From the NCBI GenBank assembly GCA_026874595.1, contig CM049316.1:13010839-13074838 (forward strand): a DNA stretch of 64,000 nucleotides. The letters run 5' to 3'. The position numbers were made by a program, and so were the translations under genes. This DNA is from Sipunculus nudus (taxonomy: Eukaryota > Annelida > Sipuncula > Golfingiida > Sipunculidae). The notes beneath the pieces were generated by a model. That model was given only the letters and a program-made list of their open reading frames with translations, made no database searches and was not told where the DNA came from. Shown here one piece after another: positions 4,836 through 57,035 of the stretch (positions are counted from its first letter, which is position 1; the number at the start of each line of letters is the position of its first letter).

Positions 4836-6592
4836 TCTGCCAAAACAGAGTTTTGCGGATACTATGTTTTCAGCTGCACGCCCCCGCCCCCGCCACCACC
4901 GCCGCCGCGGCCGCGTAGGTTTCCGGAGAACTCCTCCGTAACCACTGGGCAGAATTTTACGAAACCCGGGATTATGTTCGGGTCAAATGTGAACTGCTGC
5001 GCCCCGATTTTGTTTTGACCTCTGACCTTTCCTCTGCGCTCTGCGTCCGTTTGTGCGTCTGTTTCCACACATAAACCCACATATCTCGGGAACCGTTTGA
5101 CGGATCAGGAAAATTTTTTGCACAAATGTAGCCCTTGGAGAGCTTTATAACATACACAAAAAATGGTGGCGCCACCTGCAACCATGTTTGCACAGTGTCC
5201 ATCTGTTCGTCTGCCTTGGGTTAAAATCACTCATATCTCTGCAGTGACTTGACTAATTCACCTAAAATTTGGCATGCGTATACATCCTGGATAGCTTTTC
5301 TGATTTTGTGACAGGTGGCCCCACCTACATTCACGTTTACGCTGCAGACATCCAAGCTCATATCTCGGGAACCGTTTGACCGATCAGGAAAATTTTTTTG
5401 CACAAATGTAGCCCTTGAAGAGCTTTATAACATACACAAAAAAAATGGTGGCGCCACCTGCAACCATGTTTGCACAGTGTCCATCTGTTTGTCTGCCTTG
5501 GGTTAAAATCACTCATATCTCTGCTGTGACTTGACTAATTCACCTGAAATTTGGCATGCGTATACATCCTGGATAGCTTTTCTGATTTTGTGACAGGTGG
5601 TGCCACCTACATTCACGTTTACACTGCAGACATCCAAGCTCATATCTGGGGAACCGTTTGACCGATCAGGAAAATTTTTTTGCACAAATGTAGCCCTTGG
5701 AGAGCTTTATAACATACACAAAAAATGGTGGCGCCACCTGCAACCATGTTTGCACAGTGTCCATCTGTTTGTCTGCATTGGGTTAAAATCAATCATATCT
5801 CTGCAGTGACTTGACTAATTCACCTGAAATTCGGCATGCGTATACATCCTGGATAGCTTTTCTGATTTTATGACAGGTGGCGCCACCTACATTCACGTTT
5901 ACGCTGCAGACATCCAAGCTCATATCTCTGGAACCTTTTGACCGATCAGGAAAATTTTTTTGCACAAATGTAGCCCTTGGAGAGTTTTATAACATACGCA
6001 AAACTGGTGGCGCCACCTGCAGCCATTTTTGCACAGCTCCTGTCTGTTTGTCTGCCATGGGATAAAATCACTCATATCTCGGCAGTGGTTTGACATATCT
6101 GGCTAAAATTTTGCAGGTTTATACATCCCCGACAGCTCTCTTGATTTTATGACAGGTGGAGCCACCTGCATTCTAGTTTATGCAGCAGACATCCAAGCTT
6201 ATATCTTGGGAACCGTTTGACCAATTAGGCCAAAGTTTTGCATGTTTATAGTTCTCACATAACTCTTTATAATACGCAAAACTGGTGCCGTCACCTGCAA
6301 CCATTTTTGCTCAGCGTCCATCTGATTGTCTGCCACGGGCTAAAATCACTCATATACATGTTGTGGTTTGACTTATCTGCCTTAAATTTTGCATATGTAT
6401 ACAACTGGGACGGCTTTCTGGATTTTGTGGTAGGGGGGGCAACCTTCATACACAATTTGGCTGCAGACATCCATGCTAATATGCAACACTTCACTCTATT
6501 TCCCCTTGCCACTTAATCCATGCATCACTTCACCCGTTCCACTTTGATTTAGGCGGTTACACGTAGTCGCTTGTTGACTACCAGTATTCTAG
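4836..6592 (+). mobile_element. Non-autonomous Helitron-like element, copy 1
   Basis: It starts with TC and a subterminal hairpin (GCCAAAACAGAGTTTTGCGG). It ends with a hairpin at 6563-6581 (GTAGTCG, CTTGT loop, TGACTAC), a 7-base spacer and CTAG, immediately before a host T. These are canonical Helitron 3' features (hairpin plus CTRR, T target). Inside are about five tandem units of about 281 bp. The matching site in the right unit (about 35395) lacks it. There is no Rep/helicase ORF, so it is non-autonomous. The repeated short frames inside are copies of the unit, not genes. Confidence 0.8.
5060..6300 (+). repeat. 281 bp tandem repeat array (5 units)
   Basis: The anchor ACCGTTTGAC (or a variant) recurs at about 5092, 5371, 5654, 5935 and 6215. 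Most units carry the palindrome GGTGGCGCCACC once or twice. Later units are more diverged. The array lies wholly within the Helitron-like element. Confidence 0.85.
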
Positions 6593-6734: not shown

Positions 6735-8447
6735 TCCGCCAAAACAGAGTTTTGCGGATACTATGTTTTCAGCTGCACGCCGCCGAGAACTCCTCCGTAA
6801 ACGCTGGGTGGAATTTTACGAAACCCGGATTTTGTTCGGGTCACATGTGAACTGCTGCGCCCCGATTTTGTTTTGACCTCTGACCTTTCCTCTGGGCTCT
6901 GCGTCCGTTTGTGCGTCTGTTTCCTCACATAAACCCACATATCTCGGGAACCGTTTGACGGGTCAGGAAATTTTTTTTGCACAAATGTAGCCCTTGGAGA
7001 GCTTTATAACATACACAAAAAATGGTGGCGCCACCTGCAACCTTGTTTGCACAGTGTCCATCTGTTCGTCTGCCTTGGGTTAAAATCACTCATATCTCTG
7101 CAGTGACTTGACTAATTCACCTGAAATTTGGCATGCGTATACATCCTGGATAGCTTTTCTGATTTTGTGACAGGTGGCCCCACCTACATTCACGTTTACG
7201 CTGCAGACATCCAAGCTCATATCTCGGGAACCGTTTGACCGATCAGGAAAATTTTTTTGCACAAATGTAGCCCTTGAAGAGCTTTATAACATACACAAAA
7301 AAAATGGTGGCGCCACCTGCAACCATGTTTGCACAGTGTCCATCTGTTTGTCTGCCTTGGGTTAAAATCACTCATATCTCTGCTGTGACTTGACTAATTC
7401 ACCTGAAATTTGGCATGCCTATACATCCTGGATAGCTTTTCTGATTTTGTGACAGGTGGCGCCACCTACATTCATGTTTATGCTGCAGACATCCAAGCTC
7501 ATATCTCGGGAACCTTTGACCGATCAGGAAAATTTTTTTTGCACAAATGTAGCCCTTGGAGAGCTTTATAACATACACAAAAATGGTGGCGCCATCTGCA
7601 ACCATGTTTGCACAGTGTCCATCTGTTTGTCTGCCTTGGTTTAAAATCACTCATATCTCTGCAGTGACTTGACTAATTCACCTGAAATTCGACATGTGTA
7701 TACATCCTGGATAGCTTTTCTGATTTTATGACAGGTGGCGCCACCTACATTCACGTTTATGCTGCAGACATCCAAGCTCATATCTTGGGAACCGTTTGAC
7801 CGATCAGGAAAATTTTTTTGCACAAATGTAGCCCTTGGAGAGCTTTATAACATACACAAAACTGGTGGCGCCACCTGCAGCCATTTTTGCACAGCTCCTG
7901 TCTGTTTGTCTGCCATGGGATAAAATCACTCATATCTCGGCAGTGGTTTGACATATCTGGCTAAAATTTTTCAGGTTTATACATCCCCGACAGCTCTCTT
8001 GATTTTATGACAGGTGGAGCCATCTGCATTCTAGTTTATGCAGCAGACATCGAAGCTTATATCTTGGGAACCGTTTGACCGATTAGGCCAAAGTTTTGCA
8101 TGTTTATAGTTCTCACATAGCTCTTTATCATACGCAAAACTAGTGCCGTCACCTGCAACCATTTTTGCTCAGCGTCCATCTGATTGTCTGCCACGGGCTA
8201 AAATCACTCATATACATGTAGTGGTTTGACTTATCTGCCTTAAATTTTGCATATGTATACAACTGGGACGGCTCTGGATTTTGTGGTGGGGGGGCAACCT
8301 TCATACACAATTACGCTGCAGACATCCATGCTAATATGCAACACTTCACTCTATTTCCCCTTGCCACTTAATCCATGCCTCACTTCACCCGTTCCACTCT
8401 GATTTAGGCGGATACACGTAGTCGCTTGTCGACTACCCGTATTCTAG
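6735..8447 (+). mobile_element. Non-autonomous Helitron-like element, copy 2
   Basis: Host A at 6734 precedes TCCGCC, and the 3' end is a perfect 7 bp hairpin at 8418-8436 (loop CTTGT), 7 bases, then CTAG at 8444-8447 followed by host T. It is the same family as 4836-6592, again with five 281 bp units (anchors near 6950, 7231, 7513, 7793, 8074). The right-unit counterpart (about 35530) is an empty site. Confidence 0.85.
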
Positions 8448-9660: not shown

Positions 9661-9665
9661 AAACA

Positions 9666-9750
9666 GTTGTTATGGTAGACCCAAACAAGTTGTTGCCATG
9701 GTAGCAATCTGAGTGGGTATAAATAAAGCCTTGTGTTTGTTAGTCATCCT
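9666..9750 (+). promoter_or_regulatory. Gene A core promoter: X-box-like sites, TATA box, initiator
   Basis: GTTGCCATGGTAGC at 9692-9705 closely fits the RFX X-box consensus (inverted GTTRCC half-sites). A weaker X-box-like sequence, GTTGTTATGGTAGAC, lies at 9666-9680. After exactly 12 bases comes TATAAATA at 9718-9725, and TCATCCT around A9746 fits an initiator 28 bases downstream. The order and spacing are repeated in genes B and C. The 5' UTR would be about 71 nt. Confidence 0.75.
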
Positions 9751-9816
9751 TTTAAGGTAGATAAGGATTGAGTGTGCCCACATCACAGTTAACCAGGGAA
9801 AGGATATAAAAGTGAC

Positions 9817-9831
9817 ATGGAAACTAAAATG
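9817..9831 (+). CDS. Gene A exon 1 (start codon, METKM)
   Basis: Only 15 coding bases: ATG GAA ACT AAA ATG, then donor gtatgt. The start is chosen because it is the first ATG downstream of the TATA/initiator and joins exon 2 in phase 0 to give a signal peptide. The same mini-exon is conserved in genes B and C. Confidence 0.85.
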
Positions 9832-12800
9832 GTATGTATTCTCTACTTTTTTAAACTGAGTGAAATATTACTTTTTATCTAACTTATGATATTCTTATGA
9901 GAATGTTGTGTTTAATCTTTTCATATCAATTGTTCAAATAGTCTGCCGGTAGTGATTAACAAATGCAGAATTTGAAGCTGGTGATCTCCTATTTTAAGTT
10001 AACTCCTATAAAACCCAAAAAGAATTTTACAAATCCTCTGTACTTGTTTGAGAGCCATTTTACATTTTGTAATATCAACAGGACACAATAATCTTTAACC
10101 TCTGAAACTGTTGAAAAATGATGAAAACATAGTGTATTTAGTTAAAATTTGGAAATTATAAATGCTGAGAACAACTTGTTACAATTAAGATAAAATATGA
10201 TTACACCCAAGGTGCAATGACTCGGGATTCAGTGAAGCATTAAAAATAGAGAAGAAATTTGAATAACAGGTACAAACGTATTACATGCACTTGAGCCCAG
10301 TGCTAATTTAGTCATCCAATTGTATCCAACTCTGGAATAGTAAGAGAACAGTGTGAATTAAAAAAAAATAGTTACTTAATTGGCATCAGTTCATACACAT
10401 TAGGCACTTTATAAAAAAAAAATATTTGGATTCAATATGACTAATTTACTGGTAATTATTGGTAATAACTGAGCTGTCTAATAAGACTACCTTTTAATCA
10501 AGACCACTATAGGCCAGTCCCATGAGTGGTCTTATTATACAGGTTTTACTGTAGTTGAATAAATATAGTCAAGTGATGGAGAACATAAACCATATCTCCT
10601 TAAGGCTGGTGTAGCACAATATTTAAACTTCTCACTTCAAGACAAGGGAATTTTCCTGATACAATGGAAATAACCCTTATTTTAATTTTGTCAAATTTGC
10701 ATATTATTTTGATCAAATTTTATTTTTAAGAAAAACCCATCAACTTGTATTCATAAATATAAAAAACCTTAAAATCATGAATTGGAATGAACTCTTATGA
10801 ATATTTTATTAATTAAAACTTTACATTATATATATAAATTACTTGCAGCGGAGTATGCAAAGTGGAGCAAACAAATTTATGAAAGTTCAAATTTTACCTG
10901 ATACCTAATTTCCAAAATAATATACTTTTAGGATGGTTTGAAAATAACAAGAAATAACAGCCTACAAAATTTTTTAAATTACCAACTCACACCTGTTGTC
11001 AAACTGTAATATTTAATATTTGAGGTTTACTATAAAGTTCAGCCCTATTTTGTAATACAACCAGGAATGCCACTTTCTTTGCTATTTTCATAAGAAAGCT
11101 ATACCCTTCCCTTCCCTTCCCCTCTCCCCACTAAGTATTTGTCATATTTTAAATATCCATTATAATCCTCAAATATGCATGACATATTTGCATATATATA
11201 CATGTATCACATATGTTAACAATCAAGGTAAAGATACTGAATATGGTCATTAATTATTAAATGCACAGTTATTTTTAATTAAGATCAATGTTACATTCAC
11301 TTAATTATGTTAACATTTCAGATCACCAGAATGAAATTTATATCCCCATACAGTCTTTGGTTACTTTCTTAAAACAGTATTTCATCAATTTCACCAGTAT
11401 TTCTTCAAGGTGATATACCCAATAATCATACATATCTGACTTAATTAATTCCTCTCAAATTTCTATTTTGCTCATATGTTTGGTTATGTGTAATGTGAAA
11501 TTTTTTTTACATTCTTTAATGTATGTTTTGTAGTAGTTACAGGACATTTTGATTAAACAATCACTTGTTAAATCATTCAGCATCATATAAGTGCAATAAA
11601 TAAAGTCTTGAGATATATGTATGTTTCTTGATATGATGGTATTTCTTCCCTGGAGATTATTTATACCTTCACTATCTTTTAGTTAAAATGTTAAAAATAA
11701 GAATTCATGTTGTAAAATAACAGTAAAAAGTATCTTGGAAAATGCCTAACAGGCAGTCCAAGAATACACATAATAATGGACCTGAAAACACATGTTAATT
11801 ACATTAATGGACCTGACAAGGGTACATTAAGTGCAGAAGCTTTTTCACCAAAGCCGTTTTAACGATCCAAAAAACCTAAGGCAAATTCACCTTGATGCTG
11901 CAATCCCCACCCCAATCCATCCCCCCACCCCATTTTTCCTCCATAAGGACCAATGCACACATCAGCAAAATCATTTTTTTCAAAATTCATGAATTATGAA
12001 CTCAAGGTACTGCTTTTAAGTCAAACATAATCATTACATTAGCTCACTATATTTGCGTATTCAATTTAAAATTCAACTTGTCTATCATATTTGACAGGGA
12101 AACTCCTTTAACAAACTGATATATCTTTATGAAAACAGTGACACTTCAATATTAATATTCTGGCCAATGTTAATTAATCCTATGTGATATATATAGTCAT
12201 ACTGACCAATTGAAACACTGCAAATGCACATATAAATTTGATATTTTATTCATGTGTCTGATATGAAACAATGCAATGCTGTTTTTAATATATAATACTG
12301 ACCAATTAAGGGACACCAAATGTACTTATAAATTTTATATTTTATTCATTTATATGTCTGTTACATATCTGTATGGTTTTGTCTTTTATTGATTTATTTT
12401 TATTTATTGAGCCAGCGGCTCACTTACCGAATTTATCAGCTGATTCATAGGATCGGCCGACTATGTACTGACGGGAGTACATTGTTGTGTAGTGTGACAC
12501 CCCAAGTGACACAATTTTGTCGGCGTGAGGAATTGCCGTCGCCAAGAGTCTGGCACTGTTTAAGAAAATCAGCCAATTTTGTCAAGCAATTAGCGAAATT
12601 ATGTAGTAAGCCAATGTTTGCAACAAAGTCGGCCGGTTTTGTTAATTTTTGTATGGTCAGAGTTCACTTTCTGTACGTTGCCACTATTAGTCATTATAAG
12701 TATATATTGTATAATGACATATTTCTGTATTTTAAAAAGAATTAAAGACCAATTTTGGTAAAGATTCAAATTTCATTTATTCCTTGTAAGACAACCTGCA

Positions 12801-15800
12801 ATTTATTAGTCATTATAAAGGAGTATGCATTCATATAATTACAATGGGCGAACATTTCTGTAAACATAAGACTGAACGAACTGGTCTATGTGTGCACACG
12901 CCTATTTATTGCTGGGCTGTTGAGCAATCCTTCCAAGTGTGTGACGAGCTACTCTGAACAATTAACTCAAGCTTATGTAAGGGTTTCCTGGAGAAAAATA
13001 TAACACAATTCAATATTTACAACTCATGGATGGCAATAATCAACTGTATATCTGCTTGTAATCTCTAACCATCATTATAAATTTATTTCCTTAAGGTAGA
13101 TTTTGTGTCCCATCACTTTTTTTTTGGTCCTATCACAAGTTCTCCTTACAGTCAGCAAAAACAAAGGTGCCAAAGAAGGAAGTGTATAAATAAAAGAAAA
13201 ATTAGCCCAAAGTAAGAGGAAATGAGAGAAGACATGAATGAATAGCCAAAAAATTTTGAGTGATGCAATATCTAGTCCAGTGCACGCAGCAATACCTGAT
13301 GTTTACAGGTAACCCAATAGGCAAAAGTGTTCATGTGAACAGATCTCTGGTAACTTTTTTTCACGGAGTCAGCAGCATTGTTGGCAATGCTGTACTTTTA
13401 TACATTTTAATATATCTAATCTGACAGATAACAGAGTCATAACTGATCATCACTTGCTCTGGGAATTAATAGTAAAAATTAAAACCTAACCACGCAACAT
13501 ATTTGCTGCTGCTGGCGTTTGTTGTGTCTAGCAGTCAAATAAAACAGGATGATAAAGTGTTTGCTGGTTTATACAGGATAGCAGAATTCATATCACTTAT
13601 TTGAATTTCTAGAGACAGGAAATCCTAGAAATCACACAAACATGCAAGTAGAATATTATTTTCTAAATAAGAGTTTGTGTCTGGTGAAATAGCCCTTCTG
13701 AATGTAATATCCTGATGCTGGATGTTTGGTTTTACCAAATCCTGCAGATCAGCCACCGCAATCGTTTTAAGGGTTTAAGACCAATCCTTTCGGACATTTT
13801 CTAGACCTTGGGACCTTTCTTTAGGTTGAGTTATAAGTGCTTCTGGGTTGAACCCCTCTTTTCTTAAAACCCTGGACCTGCCTCTGAGATATGCAGAGAA
13901 AATCATTAAAATCATGGAGGACAGTTCCACCCTCCTGTCTCAGTTCTCATACAAGTGAATTGTTTATATGCTTTTAGTTCCTCTCTTCTTTCAAGCCAAG
14001 GTTTAACTGACAGGTCATTCTTCTGACACAGTTTATTTCTTTGGACAAGCCACAAAACAAACAAATATTTTGTTTTAGTTTTTCTTCTAGAAAGCTCAGT
14101 ATCATATCACCATAATGAGACAGACTCCTTCACCGATAATCTAGAGGTGGGAACAAGCACGTTGGTAAATGTGACACTGAAAATTGGCCAACTAAACCCA
14201 GCTGATTTTCAGCCGATTTTGAGAAAATCTGCCCAAAAAATCATACGACAATGTCACTTGATAAAATCGGGTAGAGAGCACATGGCTTAAATCAAGCTTG
14301 CTCACTCGAAAAGTACCCTGTTCACCCTACTTAATTATAATACAGTCACCTTTTACTAGTACAACTGTGAGTGTGTAGAGCAACGTGGGCAGTTCAGATC
14401 AAAATGACAAAAAAAAGCTTACCCTATTTCCATGACTACCACAAAAGGACCATATTACTAAACTCATGGGAACAGATAAAGAATAATTAAAATATAAATG
14501 AAAAGAAAAATGGAGATACACTGGAATAAAATCAAGTTATCATAATATTATATATAATATCATATTGATATTTTTTTGTTCTTTATTTCAGATTGTTGCT
14601 GTCCTAGTGGCTTTGGTTCTGGAATCAGGTAAGATGACATGATTCATGCTGATTTAAGTGTCTGCTGTGATGTCATAATGGTTACCATAGTGATTAAGTC
14701 ACAAATAAGTTCAATCAGAGTTTGTGAATGAAGTAGTTTATGGAAATTTTCTGAAAATATCTAATTCACAATATCTCATATCACTTTTTTTCCAGAACTC
14801 TATATATCTGGAATTTGAGTATTTTACAGTTTATTAATTTTATTATTCTTAAATTGTTATTCCATTTGTGCCAGGTCTGAGTGAACTTTATTAAAAAGAG
14901 ATAAAAGCAGCCTTTTAAAAACTCTTCATTATCATATACTTTTAAATATAATACACTTTACAACTTTTTCAACATCTAGTTTACACATTGTTTATCTTGT
15001 GGTGAATAAATACTCCCATCCCATCAGCTATCAAAAAAACTGAAGGGAAAAATTAACTGAATTGATATAAATGAACTAAAAATTAATTGAAACTATGAGG
15101 AAAATTAAACTGAACTGATTTAAAATATAAATAATGAAATGAATTGGAATTGATGACCGAGTTAGATGGAGCTGAATTGACAAACCAAGTAACTATCCTG
15201 ACATTTTCCTATATATTAATTTCCCAACATCTGGGAAACACAAAAGCAGTCAAACCGAGCAAGGTAAGCAGCTGAAATGTTGCTTAACCCCTCGTATAAA
15301 CTTTTGTGCATCAGCATACTCATTTAGGATTTGTCCAGTTATCAAAAGATTTCAACATTTATTTTACTTCTGAACGGAATCTGAATTGATAAAACATTTA
15401 CTGAATTGGAATGGAAATGCATGATATTTCTCATAAACACAATGAACTGAGTTGTTGTGATTGGATTTTTTTAACTCTTGAATTGGAAACTGAATTGGGA
15501 TTGGAATTTTTGTAATTCTTTAACTGAATAATTAATCGGAATTGAAAAATCTTTACTGACCCCGAGTATGTTAATCATCATTACATCTAAAAGGAGTTAT
15601 GTTGTAAATACATTGTATCAAATTTATATATATGAATATATATATAATCAAAATAATACACATAGAAATTCAATACATCATAGTGAAAGAGCTCAACCAT
15701 GCAGGGGAGCATTAATAATGTATCATATACAGTTATAGTTTTACTTCATGTACTACGGAATTGTTTTGTGAGTACAGCTGACTAGTCTGCTCACTCTTCA

Positions 15801-18493
15801 GGTACTAAAAGAACTGATCAGATATGCAGGTATAGTTTGCCAGAATATGTAGGATTAATCTGGGGTTATTCCGTTCAGTGAGGTTGTCGTTGGGGCCCAG
15901 GTGGCTATTGTGTTGCACTGGGGATTTGTGTGATTACTTAAAGTTACAAAGAAGTTGTTAATTATATTGAAAAAAGTCTCTAGGTTCAGCAATTCTCATG
16001 TTAGGTAATTAAATATATTTCCTGATTTTTTTAAAAATTGCATTATGTTTTGGCCCATAATTTCAAAAAAATACCCAATACTGACCTAATTTTTGGTATG
16101 TTCATAGAAAATGTATGAAAGAATGTGAATACTAAATACGATCAAAAACAGATCAGTGGTTTATATTAGGCAGCCTTGAAGTGTAACAATGGCTTTTTTT
16201 ATGGAAAACGGAGTTTTTTTCCTTAATATCTCAAAAGAACGAAGTCCTAATGACCCAATTTTCGGTATGGTAGGAGATTTTGGGGACATCTAAAATTATG
16301 CCAACAGCCTGGGAAGCACAGAGATGTGCACTGAATGACCTACAGTCATCAAAGTGGACTGCTTGACAATGTAAGGGAATACAACAAGAGCCTCCAAAAA
16401 AATTCAATAACTAGCCTAATTTTGCAGCTTTTATTATCAAATTTCAGACTTTAACAGAATAAATCCTTATATATACATGCTGTGAAAATTAAATCCACAG
16501 TACTTACAGGAAAAAAATGTGCCGTGGCCAAAGTTGGGCAAAATTTAAGGTACCAATTTTATATTTTTGCCAATATTTAAAAAAATTTTAACAGATTTTG
16601 ATCTAATTTTTGGTATACAATTAAATTTTGATTAATTAAAGTTGTATTACTGGAAAAAAGTCCCTACCTTTAACACTTTTGGTCTTAAGTGACCAAATAT
16701 CTTCCTGATTTTTTTACAAAGTCCATTATGTTTGGGCCCATAACTTTTTTAAATTATACAATACTGACTTAATATCTGGCATGTACATAGGAACTATATA
16801 GAGGAATATTTATGGTAAATATGAAGAAAACCAGATGAGTGGTTTTGATATTAGGCAGTCCTGAAGTGTGAAAATAGATTTCTAATAAAAAATTGAGGTT
16901 TTTCCTTAATATCTCGAAGGAACGAAGTCCTATTGACCCAATTTTAGGCATGGTAGGAGATTTTGGGGACATCTAACTGTATGCCGAATTTCATATTCGT
17001 AAGTCCAATGGTGTCGAAATGTGCCAGTCTTACGGACTGCCATCCAGACGGACAGACGACGGACAATGGACCACGACTATAGCTCAGATGACTTATAGTC
17101 AGCTGAGCTGATAATATTGGAGAAAAGTTCCTGCCATTCCTGGCTAAGTATTTTCCCCCAGACCATAAGTTGCATAAAATACTGAAACACTGTGAAACTC
17201 AGCTACAGCTGCATGCCAAGCATGAAACAGATAATATCGGCACACAACCAAAGACTCCTCAGACATGAAAGAGAGAAAGAACTATGGAACCTGGGTCTCG
17301 ACGCTCAGCTACATTTGTCTATAAGGTTATATGTTTATGAGGTTTTCCAAAATATTGGTCCTGTGATCAGTTTGAAGCCAACCTGTCTACCCAAACTGGA
17401 ATTATCATCCATAAACTAATTTGTGAATGGATGGGCCCTGTGACCTTAACCTTTGACCTTGTGATCCCAAAATCAAAAGGAAACTTCCCCTATTGGCAGG
17501 TGCACAACATGTTAATAATGGAAAAATTGAGATGAAAAGTTTGGCTTAAAATGCATCCACAATCTTTCTAAAGTAGTGGGTCCTGTGACCTTGACCTTTG
17601 ATCCCATGACCCCAAAATCAACAGTTCTTACTTTAGTGGTGAGCCATATATAAGTCAAGTTTGAAACCAATATTTCAAACCAAACTGGCATTATTATCTG
17701 GAAACTAATATGTTGATTGATGGCCCCCATGACCTTGACCTTGTGACCCCAAAATCTATAAGTTACTTCCACTATTGGCAGGTGAGCAAAATCAGGAAGA
17801 TAGAATGTTTGGGACAGAAAGTTTGACTAAAGATACATCAACAACCTTTTTCAAGAAGTGGGTCCTGTGACCTTGACCTTTTGCCTTATGACCCCAAAAT
17901 CAAAAGGATTCTTTCATTATTGGTGGGTCATATATAAGTCAAAATTGAAACCAATATGTCAATCCAAACTGGATTATCATCCAGAAACAAATATGTGGAC
18001 AGATGGGCCCCTGTGACGATCACCTTTGACCTTGTGACCCCCAAATCAATCAGTTTCTTCCCCTATTGGCAGCTCAGCTATATGTGCAAGATGGAAGGTT
18101 TTGGATAAAAAGTTTGGCTTAAAATGCATCCACAATCTTTCTAAATAAGTGGACACTGTGACCTTGACCTTTGACCTCATTTTACCCACATATCTGATCA
18201 GTTCAGTTAGTACCTGAAGAGTGACCAGCTGGTCAGCTGTACTCACAAAACAGTTCTGTAGTACATGAAGTAAAACTAACTGTATATGATACACAGATAT
18301 GATACACAGAGGAAGTTGGGGATCCCTGTTAGCTCAGTGGTAGAGCAGATGACCGGCAATCAGAGGGTCATGGGTTCAATTCCCATAGGGGGTGATCTGA
18401 CTTTTTCTGTGTATTCTTGTTCTATATCTCTATGAGATGGACCAGCATGGACATTCAAACATCTCTCTGTATATGATACATTAAATATATAAT

Positions 18494-18539
<46 letters not shown>

Positions 18540-21500
18540 TATGATTATTGTATCCAGTGGATGCTAAGAGGTACTGCAGAGAAGATACTGACTGCAACAG
18601 CCTGGGAAATGATCTGATCTGTGTCAAAAGTTTTTGCGACTTTGGCATCTGCTCTTGCCCAAGAAGCACTGTTTCTCGTTGGCTTGGCTCAGAGCGGCTA
18701 TTCAAATGTGTACCATGTGAGTATTTATATAGCTGTTGATCATATATTCATTTTTTTTGTATCTACTGATTATCATATATATGTTGGATTTATTTAATTA
18801 AAACAAATTGATATACAATCATTTTATTGAATTTTGATATATTTTAGTCCTAAACCTATCTATGAAAGCAACATTAAGTGAGCAAATTAGAATCAGCTAA
18901 TTTTTTGCTGAGCTCTTTGTTAAGCCCCCTGACCTAGGTCTACAACACAAAGTTGCACCCTCTATACCAAGAAAAGAAGTGGTACTGGTTAATATTGACA
19001 TCAGCAAGCTGGTAAACAATACATCTTATATCAATATCTTATCAACTTGAACGTCTTGGCATGGCTGCATGGGTGGTAATTAAGTACTCCCCCCTCCCTC
19101 CAGTAAGACCTGAGATATACTACAGGAATGAATTAGAAATCTGCATTCTAATTAATGCAAGCCTCTGCCATTCACTTATTTGGCCCACATTCCCGGGTTC
19201 ATCCCAGAATAGTGAGTATTCCCTGATGACATTCCCTAATCCAGACCTGATGTTCTGGATCCAGACCTGATGTTCTGGATCCAAACCAAAATGTTATCAA
19301 TTCTTCATTGGGCCTCAAAAATTATTTTTCTGTATTTGATTAGAGATTATGTATGTATTTCAGTGAAGAAGATTGGAGAGTCTTGTTTGTATTTGATTAG
19401 AGATTATGTATGTATTTCAGTGAAGAAGATCGGAGAGTCTTGCTCCACTGACGGAGATGCAGGTGTGTGTGGTGCAACTGATTCAGAGTGTGTTGATGGT
19501 ACCTGTCGATGCCGAAATAACTACTACTCTATTTGGGGAGGGGAGCTCTGTGTAGATGGGACAAATGCTGCGAAGCACAATGGGTATGGAGAATCATGCA
19601 GTACCAGTATTGGAGAATGCAATCTTGGAGGAGGTGCTGGCACATGTGCATCTGGGATCACTGGTAGCAACAACTGGCATAATGAAATCACTGCTTTTGA
19701 TTACCCTACCTGTGCGTGTCCTAACTTTCAGGTTCTGGAGATCAGTAACGCATACGATTCATTTGAGTACATTGGCCGAAAAAAACCTAAGTGCAGGGAC
19801 AGTGAGTATTATTCAAATTATCATTCAGCTGAAAATGTTTGTGCATGTGTATGAAATATCATGTGTCCATGAGTTAATATGCATACAGTGCAACTGGACT
19901 TTCCAAGCAAGATGATGTCTGTCCAGTGTTTTTTAGATCACCTGTTAGACTCACTGAACCACTGTACACTCCTTTAAGTTCACACACATTTGCACACATG
20001 TTTTTGGAGTATTTCTCTCATATATATATGTACTAATTACACAAACTAGTCTTGCAGCATTTTTACACCCATGCATATACCATTACACAGTTTATACCCT
20101 CAGGGGTAAATGAAAAAACACCCAGTTACAGTGATCATCTTTCAATTAAATTTATAATCATTAATCAATCATCAGTAAGAGCTATAAATGCATATATCTG
20201 TTAAATACAAAAAACAGCTGATTACTTTTAACTTATTTAACTAATTTATAATTTTGTGAGAATCATCTTTCAGGGATGCAGATGAGACTATGTTAAGGTA
20301 TCATTATTGTGAAAAACCCTGTATCTAACTCAATCTAAAGGTTGTTTAAATAATTAATATTTAAAATTTTATTTTTCAACAAAAAAGAACACACAACAGA
20401 GGAAAAAAAATGTTTTTTTTTGTAATTGTCATGTACGAAGTAACGAAATGAAAATGGTCATTTTAATCTACTGAAATCTTTTTATGACTCGATTTTTTCA
20501 TGTGTTTGTAGGGCGAATTGGGGAGTTCTGCCTGACAGACAATGACTGCAGTCGAATTCCAACACCTGGCGGAGACCATGCTCAGTGCAGTAACAACAAG
20601 TGTGAATGCAGGTCTGGTGCCTTCCCGAACTATGCGGGGACCACATGTGAAAATGGCACTGGTAAATACCAAGTGAATCACTTGAAACCTATCTGAATAT
20701 CAGTGCTGAGTGCTTAACTATATTTTATGTAAATAGTTTAAATCTGTTGAAAAAAGCACTAAAAATGTCTGATAAAGAATTAAAAAAAATTATAATACTT
20801 GCTAAATAAATATGAAACATCTGAGGCATGAGAAGACCTGTTTCCTGTTAAAAATGTACCAAACTTTAAAAATGTAGTAACTTAAGCACTGTTCTCTGAC
20901 CCTTTCTCAGACAGCAGCAGTTGACTGGTCTCCTTTATCACCCATCACTGACTGAGACTAGCTGTCACAAAATGTACAGCATTCTCTTATTGAGGCTAGC
21001 TGTCACAAGATGTACAGCATGATCTTAAATTGTCACAAAATGTACAACATTCTCTAACTGAGACTGTCACCAAATGTACAGCATCATCTGATACTGACAC
21101 AAAATATGTAACATTATCTCACGGAGACTTCACAGAATGTACAGCATTAGCTTACTGAGAGTTCACAAAATGTACGTCATTGTCTGAAACTGTCACAACA
21201 TTATCTAACTGAGACTGTCACAAAATGTCCAGTATTAATCAACTGTCAAAAATGAATGTACAGTCAAAAAATGTACATTATTATCTTACTGAGACTCACA
21301 AAAGGTCTAGCATTATCTAACCTGGACTGTCACAAAATGTCCAACTTAACCTATCTGAGACTGTCACAAAATGTACAGCGATATTTAACTGAAATATTAT
21401 CTGTCACTTATATATCACCTTATCTTAGATTGTCACATATAGATATAAATATTTACTAAACAAACTATATACTTAACTGAGATTCTCACAAACCATAAAT

Positions 21501-23532
21501 AATTTCCTGCAAAAATATGTCAAAATAAGTAATACTAGTATGTTTTTTTTGTTTTTTTTTTGCAGCTCTCACCACTGTTGGAGCAAATTGTGCAGGAACT
21601 GGGCACACTTCTGGTACCTTCTGTGATGGGTCACTAGGTCTGATATGTGCTGCTCCCCTCTGTCAGATCTATGAGAGTGGTACTTATCCAGCTGATCTGA
21701 AATGCATCTGTGGGCCTGGTTATACTACCAATGGGAATTCATGTGAGAGAAGTATGTACAGAGACAAACCTGTTTTGGAGTTATCACATGACCAATACAC
21801 AATGATATAAGGGTCCCATTCTGATATCTGACATACAATGAATGCAGATAACCTTTTGAACCTTTTATATGATTAAGCCAAAACACACAAATCCAACAGC
21901 ACATAGGCTTACTGTTTTGTCTGTATATAACCAACGTTTTTATATTATGTGGGGGTTCTGCCATAAATGCCCATAATGACCTTCCATCATATTTACAAGG
22001 ACATCTAGTGCATGGCAAATCAGATGAGCAAGAGATTTGCAAATGACAAAAGATGCTGTCACCAACAACAGCTAGTGCACACTCAACTGATTTGTTTGTC
22101 AACATGGCCACATGTAGCCTTGTTTACTACCAGCATATAAAAAAACAAAGGCAGGAATCAGCCACAGGGGCATATTATAAGAATTTTTTTATTATATGAA
22201 ATAACTTAAGTAAGGCAGGAATCATATTAATTCAAGTGTATATATATAGCTGTCTTTAAATTCAAGTCACACTGAAAACATTCTGAAACCACATCTGGAT
22301 ATTCAAAATGATCACTACAGTTTGTCAAAATAAACGAAAACTTAGGCTAATTAGCAGTTCTTTTGCTCATTTTCTGAGAACCACAATGGTCACAATGTAC
22401 CAGTAATGAATTTTTATTATGTATTCAGTAAATATGTGTGCCAGGAATACCAGTTGACTTACTATGTTAACTCTTGCATCCAGAAGTATGGAAGTAATTA
22501 AACGGTGCAAGTTACAAAATACAGTGTTATTTTCCTATACAAAGTGGGTGTTATTCTATTTTCCATATTTTTAGCCCTACATATGGGGACAGTGCACCCC
22601 CTCTAAATTTGGTCCTGAAAATGCATGAAGGCTGCATGGATATTTATCTTACATCTTCTAAAATATTCCAAGTTAATAATCAGCAAATTAAAATTAATGT
22701 TTACGCAGTTTTCATAAAAAATTATATTCTCAACTACTAGATGTTCTAGCATGATAAACAGTCACATATCTGATGCATACAAAATTTGGTTTAATAACTG
22801 GTTTTGAACTGTTTTGTATTTGTATTGTAAAAAAATGAATATTTGTCTGACCCTCAAATGACATATATGGCTTTGTTGCAGGAGTTATTGGAAGTTCATG
22901 CCGTGGAGACAAAGATTGTGAAAAGGCAGGAACAAATGTGATATGCGTGGATGGTACATGCCAGTCAGGTCAGTTCTAATTCTAATCTTTGTCATATGTA
23001 CCTCCTGTATACATACAAGCTGCTAAAAAAATTTGTAAGACCACATATGCTCATGTCAAGCAGAATTACAAATATATCTTTAATCATACATATATCAATA
23101 TGCAAATTAAACTTTTACAATATTTGTAATTAAATTACATTGTAATAGTTAATGTGTAAGTTGGCTGATAGTGATTTATGATATATAAAAATATGATATA
23201 TCAAAATATTAAGTTATTTATGCATTTGCATGCCCTGTTGGATGTGTCTCAAAGTAAAATAAAGAAATCAGAAAGAACATAAGAGTACCACTTATTTGAC
23301 AAATATTTAACATCTAAGTTATCACTAGATGATAATTGTAGACTGCTTTAACTGTTTTATCAAGACTGGCTGTTAAACTTAATTATTCCACTGGAACTGA
23401 ATACATGTGGAACAAATGAAACTTATGACCAATTCAAGTATCTGTTGTATTTTCACTGCAGGTGCCAGTGCCCTGGCTGTTACCATGGTGATCCTTGTAG
23501 CCTCCTTCCTGCTCACAGTCTCCTTCAACTAG
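9817..23532 (+). CDS. Gene A: secreted, probably GPI-anchored cysteine-rich EB/EGF-like module protein
   Basis: Eight coding exons: 9817-9831, 14592-14628, 18558-18716, 19421-19801, 20512-20661, 21566-21751, 22882-22968 and 23462-23532 (361 codons plus stop). All junctions are GT-AG. Residues 1-20 form a signal peptide (hydrophobic core 6-15, V-D-A cleavage site). The 36 cysteines fall into modules: exon 3 (24-68), two six-cysteine modules in exon 4 (78-114 and 130-195), exon 5 (204-243), exon 6 (256-307) and a four-cysteine module in exon 7 (316-336). A sequon N-G-T lies at 245-247. Residues 343-359 are hydrophobic and the chain ends in FN, so a GPI signal with a site near S338-S341 is likely; a C-terminal transmembrane anchor is the alternative. 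The spacing resembles EB modules. Function is unknown. Confidence 0.88.
12410..14287 (+). mobile_element. 1.9 kb inverted-repeat DNA element in gene A intron 1
   Basis: The left end (AGCCAGCGGCTCACTTACCG) and the reverse complement of the right end (AGCCATGTGCTCTCTACCCG) match imperfectly over about 35 bp, and both continue into TTTATCA-like sequence. The block is missing from gene B intron 1, where AT-rich sequence near 39500 runs straight into AATCAAGC. No transposase ORF is seen. The short frame at its left end has no recognisable domain. Confidence 0.6.
14592..14628 (+). CDS. Gene A exon 2 (signal-peptide core)
   Basis: 37 bases encoding IVAVLVALVLES plus one base of the next codon. A pyrimidine-rich acceptor ends in ttcag and the donor is gtaagat. 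It supplies the hydrophobic h-region. Confidence 0.85.
14681..14694 (+). promoter_or_regulatory. X-box-like site in gene A intron 2
   Basis: GTTACCATAGTGAT lies 52 bases after exon 2. It is identical at the same place in gene B (39889-39902). It matches one full RFX half-site (GTTACC) and part of the other. Confidence 0.45.
17430..18185 (+). repeat. About 143 bp tandem array rich in TGACCTTGACC motifs
   Basis: Clusters of TGACCTTGACCTTTGACC type recur near 17441, 17587, 17730, 17869, 18014 and 18160. Alternate units resemble each other more closely, giving a dimeric period near 286 bp. The motif equals reverse-oriented AGGTCA half-sites. Short minus-strand frames here are shadows of the repeat. 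Confidence 0.75.
18294..18466 (+). mobile_element. tRNA-derived SINE with 14 bp target-site duplication
   Basis: A pol III A-box (TTAGCTCAGTGGTAGAGC) is followed by a B-box (GGGTTCAATTCCC) and a perfect 5 bp T-arm stem. The flanks CTGTATATGATACA at 18280-18293 and 18467-18480 are identical direct repeats, as expected for LINE-mediated insertion. The tRNA-like part is about 18326-18397. The anticodon stem pairs only in three positions and position 33 is C, so this is not a functional tRNA. It sits inside the right inverted repeat of the intron 2 element. Confidence 0.8.
18497..18542 (+). repeat. (TA)n microsatellite next to the exon 3 acceptor
   Basis: Pure TA dinucleotides end about 15 bases before the acceptor of gene A exon 3, replacing the usual polypyrimidine tract. 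Gene B has a TTTTGTTTCCAG acceptor instead. Confidence 0.8.
18558..18716 (+). CDS. Gene A exon 3 (first cysteine module)
   Basis: Encodes residues 18-70 with cysteines at 24, 30, 39, 44, 49, 51 and 68 and the conserved stretch RSTVSRWLGSER. The protein sequence is identical to gene B exon 3, with only three silent base differences. Phase 1 on both sides. Seven cysteines is an odd number, so one may pair outside the module. Confidence 0.9.
19364..19420 (+). repeat. 57 bp tandem duplication carrying a second splice acceptor for exon 4
   Basis: The segment at about 19331-19387 is repeated as 19388-19444. It includes TTTCAG and the first bases of exon 4. The upstream acceptor ends at 19363 and the downstream one at 19420. 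The offset is 57 bases (19 codons) with no stop in the exon 4 frame, so both are usable. Gene B has a single copy. Confidence 0.85.
19421..19801 (+). CDS. Gene A exon 4 (two six-cysteine modules)
   Basis: Encodes residues 71-197. Each half starts with G-E-S-C-S-T: cysteines 78, 87, 94, 99, 101, 114, then 130, 137, 146, 168, 170, 195. The first half is nearly identical to gene B at DNA level up to the VDG codons, while the second half differs at many residues. An upstream acceptor could extend it to 19364. Confidence 0.88.
20512..20661 (+). CDS. Gene A exon 5 (six-cysteine EB-like module)
   Basis: Residues 198-247 with cysteines 204, 210, 223, 228, 230 and 243. The pattern C-x5-C-x12-C-x4-C-x-C-x12-C is close to EB modules. 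It ends with sequon N-G-T, present in all three paralogues. Phase 1 on both sides. Confidence 0.88.
20930..21500 (+). repeat. Degenerate short tandem repeat in gene A intron 5
   Basis: A unit of roughly 35-40 bp with the core ACTGTCACAAAATGTACAGC recurs more than ten times. A shorter, more decayed array is at 45485-45730 in gene B. Confidence 0.7.
21566..21751 (+). CDS. Gene A exon 6 (seven-cysteine module)
   Basis: Residues 248-309. It begins with LTTVGANC, contains FCDGSLGLIC and ends with GYTTNGNSCER. The conserved CDG-x2-GL-x-C core is shared with genes B and C. Phase 1 on both sides. Confidence 0.88.
22882..22968 (+). CDS. Gene A exon 7 (short four-cysteine module)
   Basis: Residues 310-338 (GSSCRGDKDC then VICVDGTCQS), resembling the first half of an EB module. 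It directly precedes the anchor exon. Confidence 0.88.
23462..23532 (+). CDS. Gene A exon 8 (hydrophobic C-terminal anchor signal)
   Basis: Encodes ASALAVTMVILVASFLLTVS plus FN and stop TAG. A small-residue region (SGAS) followed by about 17 hydrophobic residues and no cytoplasmic tail fits a GPI-attachment signal. Confidence 0.88.
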
Positions 23533-36765: not shown

Positions 36766-36850
36766 GTCGTTATGGTAGACCCAAACAAGTTGTTGGCTTG
36801 GCAACAATCTGAGTGGGTATAAATACAGCCTTGCGTTTGTTAGTCATCCT
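36766..36850 (+). promoter_or_regulatory. Gene B core promoter: X-box-like sites, TATA box, initiator
   Basis: GTTGGCTTGGCAAC at 36792-36805, a weaker copy at 36766-36780, TATAAATA at 36818-36825 after 12 bases, and initiator TCATCCT around A36846. The left half-site differs from gene A but the right half (GGCAAC) is closer to consensus. Confidence 0.72.
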
Positions 36851-36918
36851 TTCAAGTTAGATAAGGACTAAGTGAGCCCCACATCACAGTTAACCAGGGA
36901 AAGGATTTAAAGGTGACA

Positions 36919-36933
36919 TGGAAACTAAAATGG
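36919..36933 (+). CDS. Gene B exon 1
   Basis: ATG GAA ACT AAA ATG then donor gtatgt, identical to gene A exon 1. Confidence 0.85.
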
Positions 36934-39900
36934 TATGTATTCTCTACTTTTTTAAACTGAGTGAAATATTACTTTTCGTCTAACTTATGATATTCTTATG
37001 AGAATGTTATATCTAATCTTTTCATATAAATTGTTCAAATAGTCTGCCGGTAGTGATTAACAAATGCAGAATTTGAAGCTGGTGATCTCCTATTTAAAGT
37101 TAACTCCTATAAAACCCAAAAAGAATTTTACAAATACCCTGTTCTTGTTTGAGAGCCATTTTACCTTTTATAATATCAACAGGACATAATAATCTTTAAC
37201 TTCTGAAACCGTTGAAAAATGATGAAAACATAGTTTATTTAGTAAAAATTTGGAAATTATAAATGCTGAGAACAACTTGTTACAATTAAGATAAAATATA
37301 AGACACAATCACTGAGGGTTCAGTGAAGCAGTAAAAATAGAGAAGGAATTTGATTAACAGGTACAAACGTATTACATGCACTTGAGCCCAGTGCTTAACT
37401 TAGCCATCCAATTGTTTTCAGCTCTGGATTAGTAACCTAACAGTCTGAATTTTAAAAATATTTACTTAATTGGCATCAGTTCATACTCATAAAGCAATTT
37501 ATAAACAAAAATATTTGGATTCCATATGACTAATTTACTGGTAATTATTGGTAATCACTGAGCTGTCTAATAAGACTACCTGTTAATCAAGACCACTTTA
37601 GGCCTGTCCGATGAGTGGTCTTATTGCACAGGTTTTACTGTAGTTGAATAAATATAGTCCAGTGAAGGAAGGAAAACATAAAACATATCTCCTTAAGGCT
37701 GGTGTAGCACAATATTTAAACTTAATTCTCACTTCAAGACCAGGGAATTTTCCTGTTACAATTGAAATCACCCTTATTTTAATTTTCTCAAATTTGCATA
37801 TTATTTTGTGTGAATTTAATTTGTAAGAAAAAAAAACACCAACTTGTCTTCATTAATATCAAAATCCTTAACAACATGAGTTGGAATGAACACTTATTAA
37901 TAATTTATTAATTAAAACTTTACATTATATATATGTTAATCACTTGCAGCTGAGTATGCAAAGTGGAGCAAACATATTTATGAAAGTTCAAATTATACCT
38001 GATACCTAATTTTTTATATACTTTTTTGCTGGTTTGAAAATATCAAGAAATATCAGCCTACAAAATTTTCTAAATTACCAACTGGCAACTGTTGTAAAAC
38101 TATGTTTAATATCTGAGGTTTACTATAAAGTTCAGCTCTGTTTTGTAATACAACCAGGAATGCCATTTTCTTTGCTATTTTTATAAGAAAGCTATACCCC
38201 TCCCTCCCCCTCTCCCCACTAAGTATTTGTCAAATTTTAAATATCCATTATAATCCTAAAATATGCATGACATATTTGCATTAATATGTATCACATACGT
38301 TCAAAATCAAAGATACAGATACAGAATATGGTCATTTATTTTTAAATGCATATTAATAATATCTGTCAGTTATTTTTTATATAGATCAATGTTACATGAC
38401 TGTCACTTAATTATGTCCACCTTTCAGAAAACCAGAATGAAATTAATTTCCCCATACAGTTTTTGGTCACTTTCTTAAAAGTATTTCATCTATTATCTGC
38501 AAGGTGTATGATATACCTCATAATCATATAATTTTGAATTAATTAATAAATTCTTAGCAAATTCTTATTTTGCTCATATGTTTGGAGATGTATTCTGAAA
38601 TCATTTTTTTTCAGTTACAGGCCATTTTGAATAAACAATCATTTGTTAAATCATTCAGCATCATAACAGTACAATTAATAAAGCCTTAAGATATATGTAA
38701 TATGTATCCTAATGTGATGGTATTTCTTCTCTGTAGATTATTTACATTTTCACTATCTTTTAGTTAAAAATGTAACAAATATGAATTCATTTTGTTGAAT
38801 AACAGTAAAAAGTATCTTGGAAAATGCCTAACAGGCAGTCAAAGAATACATATAATAATGGACCTGAAAACACGTTTATTACATTAATGCACCTGATGAG
38901 GGTACATTTAGTGAGGAAGCTATTGATCAAAGCCATAATGATCCAATAATCCTACGGCAAACTCCCCTAGATGTTGTCCCACCTCCCCACTCCAAAAGGA
39001 CCAATGTGCACATCAGCAATTTTTTTTTTTAATTTCATGAAATATATCATCTCAGGTTACTGCTGTAAAGTCAAATATACCACTATATTAACTTGCTTAG
39101 GGTATTTAATTTAAATTTCAACTTATCTTTCTTATATGATAGGGAAATGTCCATATAACATTCTGATATATAGGTCTGAAAACAGTGATACTTCCAATCT
39201 AATAATCTAGCCAATGTGAATTAACCCTATGAGATAAAGTCCTCCAGATTTTTTGTAAAAAATATCAAGGCCCTGTTTTAAAAATATCATAATGACCAAT
39301 TTAAACACTGCAAACGCACTAATAAAAATTGATATTTTATTCATGTATATGTCTTATATAAAACAATGCAAAGCCCTGTTTTCAATTAATAATAGAGACC
39401 AATTAAAGCACACCAAATATACTTATAAATTTTTATTTAATTAATTTATATGTTTGTTACTAATTTGTATTGTATAGTTTCAGCTTTTATTTATTTATTA
39501 AAATATTACGGATTAATCAAGCTTCCCTCTTGGCAAGTACCCTGTTTACCCTACTTATAACATAGTCAATTTGTATTAGTACAAATGCATGTCAGTGTGT
39601 GAACTGAATGTTTAATTCAAAAGATCCCCAAAAAAACTTAAAAACCTATTTTCATGATTACCACAAAAAATCATACATCTAAAGTTAAGTGGACAGATAA
39701 GGAATCATATTAAATATAAATGAAAAGAAAAATGGAGATGCATTGGAATATCATCCAGTAATCATAATATTGACTATGTTTTTTTTTTCTTTGTTTCAGT
39801 TTCTTGCTGTCCTGGTAGTTTTTGTTTTGGCATCAGGTAAGATGACATGATTGATGCTGATTTAAGTGACTGCTGTGATGTTGTAATGGTTACCATAGTG

Positions 39901-42900
39901 ATTAAGTCAGAAATGTAAATTCAATCAGAATTTGTGAATGAATTAGTCTATAGAAATTTTCTGAAAACATCTGATTCACAGTATCTAATATCACTTTTTT
40001 TGCAGAACTAAATTCTTGGAATTCTTGAAAGTTTATTTATTTAATTATTCTTTAATTGTTATCCAATTTTTAAAGGTCTGTGTGAACTTTATTATGAAGA
40101 GATAAAAGCAGCAATCTAAAAACTGTTGATTACCACATATTCTTTTCAAGTTTTTCAACATTTAGTTTACATATTGTTTATCTAGTTGTGAATAAATACT
40201 CCAATCCCATCAACTAGAAGAACTGAAGTGGAAATTGAATTGAATTGATATAATTGAACTTAAACTGAATTGAAACTGAAGGAAAAGTTTAACTGAATGG
40301 ATATAAATTTCAATGAAATGAATTAGAACTGAAGGGAAAGTTAAACTGAATTGATATAAATTATAATGAAATGAGCTGGAATTGAAGGGAAAATTAAACT
40401 GATTGATATAAATGGTAATAAAATGAAATGGAAGTTAAGGGAAAATCAAGCTGAATTGATATAAATGATAATAAAATGAACTGAAACTTAAGGGAAAATC
40501 AAGCTGAATTGGTATAGATTATAATTGAATGAATTGGAATTTAATTGAAATTGATGATTCAGATGGATGGAGCTGTATTGATGAACAAAGCCCTGGCATT
40601 TTTACTATATATTAATTTTCCAACATTTGACTAGTGTCAAACACAAAAGGATTCATAAGGAGCAGGATGAGTAACTAAAAATGTGGCTTAACCCTTCATT
40701 TTTATATTTTGTGCATCAGCTTACCCATTCAGGATTTGTCCAATGATTAAAAGATTTCAAAATTTTTTATTGCTCCTGAATTGTATCTGAACTTTCTATA
40801 CATCATTTGTACTGAAGTGGAACTGATATTTTTCATAAACACATTAAAATGAGTTGTGATTGGATTTTGTTTAATTCCTGAATTTGAAACTGAATTAGAT
40901 TTTGTATGTTTCTAATTCTTGATTTTAAAAATTAATTGGATTAGAAAAATCCAAGTCTGTTAATCATCTGAGAGGATAAAAACCTCTTAATAACCTCAAA
41001 TAACCTCTTGTGTCACCTTGTATATTATATAAAGTATCATCTGACTTTTGTTTCCAGTGGATGCTAAGAGGTACTGCAGAGAAGATACGGACTGCAACAG
41101 CCTGGGAAATGATCTGATCTGTGTCAAAAGTTTTTGTGACTTTGGCATCTGCTCTTGCCCAAGAAGCACTGTTTCTCGTTGGCTTGGCTCAGAGCGGTTA
41201 TTCAAATGTGTACCATGTGAGTATTTGTATTACAAGTGATGATATGTTCAATTTTTTTTTATATCTACTGATTCTCATAGATACATTGGATTTATTTAAT
41301 TAAAAGATTTTAATATATAACTAGAATATCAGTTAACCTGACAAAAGCATTCAGCCAAAGGAACAGTATTTATGGGTGGTAACAGTAACACGTATGAAAA
41401 ATTTGTTTTTACATGGATGTTCTGTACATACGTCTCTTGTTCAAGTCATAAATTTGAAGTAGGGAGGTATGTAGTACCTTTGCAAGTTTGGCACCCCCAA
41501 ACGCATGCAGCACTTAGAAATCATCAAAGGGCAAAAGGCCATACTATGTTTCAAAACAATCCACCCAGTGGTTAATAGCTCAGAAATAAGTATTTTTCTA
41601 TTATAAGCTCTATGACTTTGAAAAGTAGGTTAAGGTGACCCATCTTCAAACTGTTGTGTCGACGTCGGCAGCTATATTCAAACCTGACCAAGATTATGTT
41701 TATATGCATCAGCACTGAAACAGGGAAGTTCCTGTGTTGAATACTTTTGAAGATATCCTGCTCATGAGGCAAAAATTGAAAAACGACAATAAATTCATTA
41801 AAAATCAGAAACTGTTGGTGATGCCCCTTAACTTGTACAGCACTTCAGTAAATTGACTGTAAAATGTTTCATAACAATCTACCCAGTAGCTCTTGAGAAA
41901 AAAGCTCCTAAGTTTTTTTCTATTATAAGCTCTGTGACCTTAAAAAGTAGATCAAGGTCACCCATCTTTGAACTTGACCGAGATTATTTTATATGCATCA
42001 GCACTGAGGAAATGAAGTTCCTGTTATGATTACTTTTGGAGATATCCTGCTCACAATGCCAAAGTTGAAAAATCTGATAAAAATTCTTTAAAAAATATGA
42101 AATTTTAGGTGGTGCCCCCAAACTGTGCAGCATTTACAGACCATTAGTCTCACTGATCATAGCATGTTTTATAACAATCTATCCATTGGTTTATAAGAAA
42201 CAAGCTTGTAAGTATTTTTCTATAATAAGCTCTGAAATGTTGAAATATATATGTCAAGGTCACCCATCCTTGAATTGACTGAGATTTGTCAAAATACATC
42301 TGGACCGAAGAAATAAAATTCCCACGCTAAATCCCTATAGAGATATCCTGCTCACAAGGTAAGACAGCCGGATGGCAAGACTGCCTGACAGAGGGCTTGG
42401 GTGACAACAGTAGCCCATCAGCCTAAGGGCTTTAAATGTTATTGATTTTTAATATTTTATAAATCATAAACCTTTCCTTTGAAAGCCACACTTTAAAATC
42501 ATAAAGTGAGAAAATTAGAATCTTTTAATTGTTTGCTGAGCTATTAGATAAGCCCCCTGACCAAGGTCTCTAACACAAAGTTGCACTCTCAACACCAAGA
42601 AGTGAAGTGGTACTGGTTTAGTGTCTGGGCACAGCTGCTGAGGGGTTAGTACCCCCTCCCCCTGTGAGACCTGAGATATACCACAGAAATGAACTAGAAA
42701 TCTGCATTCTAATAAATGCAAGCCTCTTCCATTCACTTATTTGGCCCACATTCCCCGGTTCATTCCAGAATAGTGAGTATTCCTTGATGACTCTCCTTGA
42801 TCCAGACCTGATGTTCTGGATCCACACCAAAATGTAATCAGTTCTTCATTGGGCATCAACAATTATTTTTCTGTATTTGATTAGAGATTTTGTATGTATT

Positions 42901-56850: not shown

Positions 56851-56892
56851 TCTCAGCTAGTTACCGTTACTGTGCTTGACCATAACAATATG

Positions 56893-56957
56893 GTTTCCAA
56901 GGCAGCAGGATAGGATGGTATATATACAGGCTGGTCCTCTGGTTATGTTCACTTTAA
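56893..56957 (+). promoter_or_regulatory. Gene C core promoter: X-box-like site, TATA box, initiator
   Basis: GTTTCCAAGGCAGC at 56893-56906, then exactly 12 bases, TATATATA at 56919-56926, and an initiator-like TTCACTTT around A56951. The surrounding sequence is diverged from genes A and B, so shared order and spacing suggest constraint. The 5' UTR would be about 70 nt. Confidence 0.65.
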
Positions 56958-57020
56958 GCAGGGAAAGCTAACCAGAAGCAGGATAGGTCACAGAAAACAG
57001 GGAATATTACAACAAGAATA

Positions 57021-57035
57021 ATGGATACCAAACTG
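57021..57035 (+). CDS. Gene C exon 1
   Basis: ATG GAT ACC AAA CTG then donor gtaagag, the counterpart of METKM in A and B. Confidence 0.82.

Follow-up and report, generated by a model that had tools for sequence, protein, structure and literature searches.

Putative RFX-type X-boxes in proximal promoters of several members of a tandem EB-module gene family of Sipunculus nudus

Genes and promoter sites in the window

The window, a stretch of 64 kb from contig CM049316.1 of the Sipunculus nudus assembly, contains three paralogous genes, which we call A, B, and C (Table 1). All three share one layout, consisting of a five-codon exon 1, a hydrophobic exon 2, and a series of cysteine-rich exons, and their intron phases agree. 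Because the exon structure is consistent across exon 1, the signal peptide, and the EB exons, A, B, and C were taken as real gene starts. A Pfam scan of predicted proteins A and C placed the EB domain (PF01683) above its cut-off of 24.3 bits in both (35.4 and 30.1 bits, respectively), a feature that they share with EB-module secreted proteins. No relative of predicted protein A was found among solved structures at E 1. The genes form a tandem array and encode predicted secreted, cysteine-rich EB-module proteins, not recognised ciliary parts.

Several further features were observed in and around gene A. Upstream of it, two arrays of a ~280-bp unit (5080-6482 and 6938-8213) lie within a larger duplication. 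In an intron of the gene, ARAGORN, run with the bacterial code, calls a tRNA-Ala (18322-18394), which may be a pseudogene or a repeat. A 57-bp tandem duplication (19331-19442, 98%) copies the exon 4 splice acceptor together with the first codons and gives a possible second 3' splice site; none is reported at the matching place in gene B. A hydrophobic tail, ASALAVTMVILVASFLLTVSFN, lies ahead of the stop (23422-23529), is kept in A and B, and looks like a putative GPI-anchor signal or membrane anchor.

Table 1. Promoter elements and exons of the X-box paralogues, in window coordinates (Z and D lie outside the window)
Feature	Coordinates	Strand	Remarks
Paralogue Z promoter	-18665		X-box GTTGCCACGGCAGC, 12 bases, TATA box TATAAATA
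Gene A proximal promoter to exon 1	9663..9834	+	still alignable with C (60%)
Gene A X-box, GTTGCCATGGTAGC	9692..9705	+	1 mismatch to GTTRCCNNGGYAAC; full GYTRYYNNRRHRAC match on - strand
Gene A TATA box, TATAAATA	9718..9725	+	gap of 12 from X-box
Gene A exon 1, coding part	9817..9831	+	METKM, then GT donor
Gene A exon 2	14592..14628	+	signal-peptide core
Gene A exons 3-7	18558-18716, 19421-19801, 20512-20661, 21566-21751, 22882-22968 (span 18558..22968)	+	EB modules
Gene B X-box, GTTGGCTTGGCAAC	36792..36805	+	1 mismatch to GTTRCCNNGGYAAC, 1 to GYTRYYNNRRHRAC
Gene B TATA box, TATAAATA	36818..36825	+	gap 12
Gene B exon 1, coding part	36918..36932	+	METKM
Gene B further exons	39800-39836, 41058-41216, 42905-43285, 44677-44829, 45789-45968, 46360-46446	+	
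Gene C X-box, GTTTCCAAGGCAGC	56893..56906	+	2 mismatches to GTTRCCNNGGYAAC; full GYTRYYNNRRHRAC match on - strand
Gene C TATA box, TATATATA	56919..56926	+	gap 12
Gene C exon 1, coding part	57021..57035	+	MDTKL
Gene C further exons	59109-59142, 60888-61043, 61439-61801, 62647-62790, 63297-63470	+	
Paralogue D promoter	73356		X-box GTTGCCAAGGCAAT (1 mismatch), then GGTCATAAAG replacing TATA box

An earlier reading of the letters alone (the sequence-only reading) had placed an imperfect palindrome of the X-box type 12 bases ahead of a TATA box at each of the three genes, and the three 14-mers, the TATA boxes, and the intervening 12 bases lie exactly as it described. The palindromes are indeed imperfect, with complementary pairs at 5/7 (A), 5/7 (B), and 4/7 (C) positions, and the distance from X-box to start codon is 125-128 bp in the three genes. 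The same reading had also placed initiator-like sequence 28-32 bases past the TATA start. This part of it held for C, in which both YYANWYY and BBCABW occur there, as they also do in paralogue Z outside the window; at A and B neither motif lies in that interval, and an initiator was rejected. Two other candidates were discarded. The palindrome at 9666-9679, with which the range of the earlier reading began, has 4 mismatches to GTTRCCNNGGYAAC. A dyad preceding the X-box has perfectly matched arms only in paralogue D (7/7 arm bases, a score equalled by 83 of 4000 random 34-mers); in Z, A, B, and C it is ordinary, and it is thus no shared element.

The X-box matches were compared with chance by using the consensus GTTRCCNNGGYAAC; both this consensus and the mismatch cut-offs were our choice. 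Within the 64 kb, at most 1 mismatch occurs at A and B and nowhere else, while a second-order Markov null gives 0.47 such matches over both strands, or ~0.23 places. Exactly 2 mismatches occur at 7 places in the window (C and 6 others), against ~2.7 under the null; the match of C alone is therefore unexceptional, and its position is what counts. The window holds 497 TATAWAWR sites (254 on the + strand and 243 on the - strand), and just three of them, those of A, B, and C, have an X-box match (at most 2 mismatches) 0-40 bp upstream, every one at a gap of 12. The rarity of A and B, together with these sole X-box/TATA pairings, indicates that the X-box sites are not due to chance. When 100 kb on either side of the window was included (264 kb in total, from an assembly of 1.43 Gb), 6 places had at most 1 mismatch to GTTRCCNNGGYAAC, in comparison with 0-2 (mean 0.7) in ten shuffles. 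Four of the 6 belong to the Z, A, B, and D promoters, and the other two lie at 65297 and 139512. For D, the chance of finding the 14-mer GTTGCCAAGGCAAT at the matching promoter place is ~3e-4 over 13 positions.

Family members beyond the window

When the whole genome was searched at the protein level with exon 4 of gene A, a family of at least 10 members emerged, at least 9 in the array and at least 1 on contig C5. Five of them (Z, A, B, C, and D) have an X-box promoter, in which the X-box always starts 124-128 bp ahead of the ATG. The 12-base gap is the same in four of these five (Z, A, B, and C). In D, the X-box is followed at ~14-15 bases by CATAAA only, which appears to be a weak or decayed TATA box; exon 2 of D was not found in the filtered exon search.

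For the other five of the ten members (P1, P2, P3, E, and C5), no X-box promoter was found in the sequence examined. The likely exon 1 of P3, at window coordinate -52454, has no X-box (best candidate, 4 mismatches), and its nearest TATAWA lies 209 bp before the ATG. Exon 1 of P1, P2, E, and C5 was not found in the sequence examined, so the absence of an X-box is weaker evidence for these four. A promoter profile found nothing beyond its five promoters in the 264 kb (next best E 0.85), a circular recovery in so far as the profile was built from the same Z, A, B, C, and D, and it gave no match in 20 kb upstream of C5 or in 11 kb around P1. The C5 member itself lies at C5:4461774-4462136 on the minus strand; its likely exon 2 was found, and neither an exon 1 nor an X-box promoter was detected in the 20 kb upstream.

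In the protein tree, Z, A, and B are grouped (94/96), as are C and D (95/96), and C5 is placed next to them. The remaining members, P1, E, P2, and P3, lie outside these groups on long branches under a midpoint root. C5, whose examined sequence gave no such promoter, is thus placed among the X-box genes, and two changes are required to map the X-box label onto this tree; a single branch separates labelled from unlabelled genes in 4% of the bootstrap trees.

Conservation of the X-box and of its distance to the TATA box

Genes A and B belong to a single large duplication, with 83.6% identity over 3.3 kb and 90% over 1396 columns around the promoter. They therefore count as one case for the spacing, with the gap inherited, and the three sites in the window represent two lineages. 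The flanks of gene C had been described as otherwise diverged, which is correct in part: a promoter stretch of 179 columns (A 9663-9834 with C 56863-57038) remains alignable at 60% (E 1e-5).

These relationships raise the explanation that the promoters are alike only through gene copying, the X-box likeness being incidental and free of special constraint. Consistent with this, A, B, and Z are recent duplicates, identical among themselves at 10-12/14 positions of the X-box and at 11-12/12 of the gap, and the A and C promoters still align throughout. Moreover, the X-box is a hot spot of difference between A and B, being their most diverged 14-mer by substitutions (4/14 vs 18/297 in the flanks, p 0.012, in a test chosen after the divergence had been seen). 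With Z as the outgroup, three of these changes fall on B (3/14 vs 4/212, p 0.006; p 0.065 for any lineage). Against it, when Z, A, and B are compared with C and D, and C with D, the X-box is identical at 9-12/14 positions and the following 12 bases at 3-5/12, in a comparison made without gaps, in which the indel of D lowers its 12-base figure. D also retains its X-box despite a decayed TATA box. Furthermore, the four A/B differences preserve the consensus match: B, at 4/14 positions off A, still has 1 mismatch, which random sets of four changes achieve (at most 1 mismatch) in ~0.9% of trials. The left half-site of B is no longer perfect, and its right half-site is. We read the A/B change as probable turnover with retention, and it might also fit relaxed constraint. 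Altogether, we regard copying without constraint as unlikely.

Another explanation is a true grammar of X-box, gap, and TATA box, in which RFX would contact TBP over a fixed distance and the gap of 12 bases would be under selection. The gap is exactly 12 in Z, A, B, and C although its sequence changed between the clades, and the X-box centre is ~19 bp away from the TATA start, a distance close to two helical turns. D, by contrast, has another gap and only CATAAA, and the spacing is shared by just two independent lineages. A genome-wide search for a perfect GTTNCCNNGGNAAC followed by TATAWA at gaps of 6-20, with a reversed control, returned 235 places (control 127), or ~16 per gap on average. 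A gap of 12 was not enriched, with 12 places (control 6). Among the first 100 of the 235 places, 58 were left after exact duplicates and places containing at least one of four repeat strings had been dropped, and 5 of the 58 were at gap 12; many of the GTTNCCNNGGNAAC/TATAWA places listed are dispersed repeats.

A permissive pattern derived from the family had 8 exact matches in the 1.43 Gb, namely Z, A, C, four running into AT repeats, and one on C13. This pattern is circular, so its exact matches, three of them family promoters, say no more than that the combination seldom occurs elsewhere. With at most 1 mismatch allowed, it matched 131 places (reversed control 73), B among them with many unrelated ones. 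Among the titles and abstract openings listed by the literature searches, none concerned a fixed X-box/TATA gap. The shared grammar with a fixed gap, which the sequence-only reading had proposed, was not borne out by D or by the genome, and we consider selection on the gap very unlikely. Z, A, B, and C have the 12-base gap in common by descent, mostly through gene duplication, and it does not hold as a rule across this genome.

Assignment to RFX and the proposed promoter

PMC2375033 gives a restricted RFX consensus for Drosophila targets, GYTRYY N1-3 RRHRAC, and a degenerate one, RYYNYY N1-3 RRNRAC. The restricted form is matched in full by Z, A, and C (minus strand) and with 1 mismatch by B and D, in agreement with the proposal that RFX-type X-boxes stand at real gene starts. 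The degenerate form is matched in full by Z, A, C, and D (minus strand) and with 1 mismatch by B. The restricted consensus with a spacer of 2 is itself not rare, with 21 matches in the 264 kb and 3-16 in ten shuffles. The RFX DNA-binding domain (PF02257) was found above its cut-off at 14 places in the genome (best E 4e-22), 4 of them with internal stops; these places are exons and do not give a gene count. MHC class II promoters have a proximal RFX-type X-box, with S and Y boxes. They resemble the promoters described here in the proximal RFX-type site, and the gene family differs.

The position of the X-boxes agrees with that in fly and human targets, which also lie near the ATG or the start site: for D. 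melanogaster, 11 of 20 tabulated rows of conserved X-boxes in PMC2375033 place them 60-141 bp before the ATG, and human X-boxes generally lie no more than 500 bp from the start site (PMC5838959). The mere presence of an X-box ahead of an ATG does not predict control by RFX, as the same Drosophila source states (PMC2375033). Rfx motifs are strongly enriched in the promoters of multiciliated-cell genes of Xenopus (PMC5245798). The sites here share with the ciliary X-box promoters of Drosophila dRFX targets (PMC2375033) and Xenopus (PMC5245798) the imperfect inverted repeat, the fit to GYTRYY N1-3 RRHRAC, the proximal position, and preservation across gene lineages. They differ from those ciliary targets in that the genes encode predicted secreted EB-module proteins, that a TATA box follows in 4/5, and that conservation is seen here among the paralogues of one genome only. 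A literature search on the RFX X-box motif in molluscs returned no paper.

The palindrome might instead be bound by another dyad-reading factor, as the departure of B from the restricted consensus would allow, but Z, A, and C match the published RFX consensus in full (PMC2375033) and the genome encodes RFX DNA-binding domains, which makes this explanation improbable.

We conclude that the sites are probably X-boxes of the RFX type, located in the proximal promoters of some members of a tandem EB-module family and inherited with the genes. The most likely account of the promoter sequences is a real inherited X-box promoter, an element of a known kind, in part of the tandem family. An arrangement with the X-box ~125 bp before the ATG and the TATA box 12 bases further on most likely predates the split between Z/A/B and C/D. 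In the proposed mechanism, an RFX protein would bind the X-box ~41-58 bp before the expected start site and would help to recruit the transcription machinery set by TBP on the TATA box. The promoter would have been copied along with the genes during duplication, from an ancestral state that we infer.

A more far-reaching version would be a dedicated X-box core promoter, with RFX docked at a fixed two helical turns upstream of TBP, which would co-drive the EB-module family in a single cell type, whether ciliated, sensory, or gland. As the anchor of this promoter, the X-box could persist after the TATA box has decayed, for which D would be an example, and could re-form its strong half-site on the opposite side, for which B would be one. 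We regard this version as quite unlikely, and expression of the EB-module genes in ciliated, sensory, or gland cells is put forward as a hypothesis only.

If RFX drives these genes, an expanded family of cysteine-rich, secreted proteins would be among the RFX targets of this animal. The array also forms a natural series in which the X-box, the gap, and the TATA box vary separately: Z, A, B, and C have both elements, D has an X-box without a proper TATA box, and P3 has neither at the corresponding place. The contribution of each part could therefore be tested with reporters. At several of the places listed in the genome-wide search, a perfect GTTGCCATGGCAAC palindrome lies next to an AT run within a dispersed repeat, and this repeat, if bound by RFX, would spread X-boxes.
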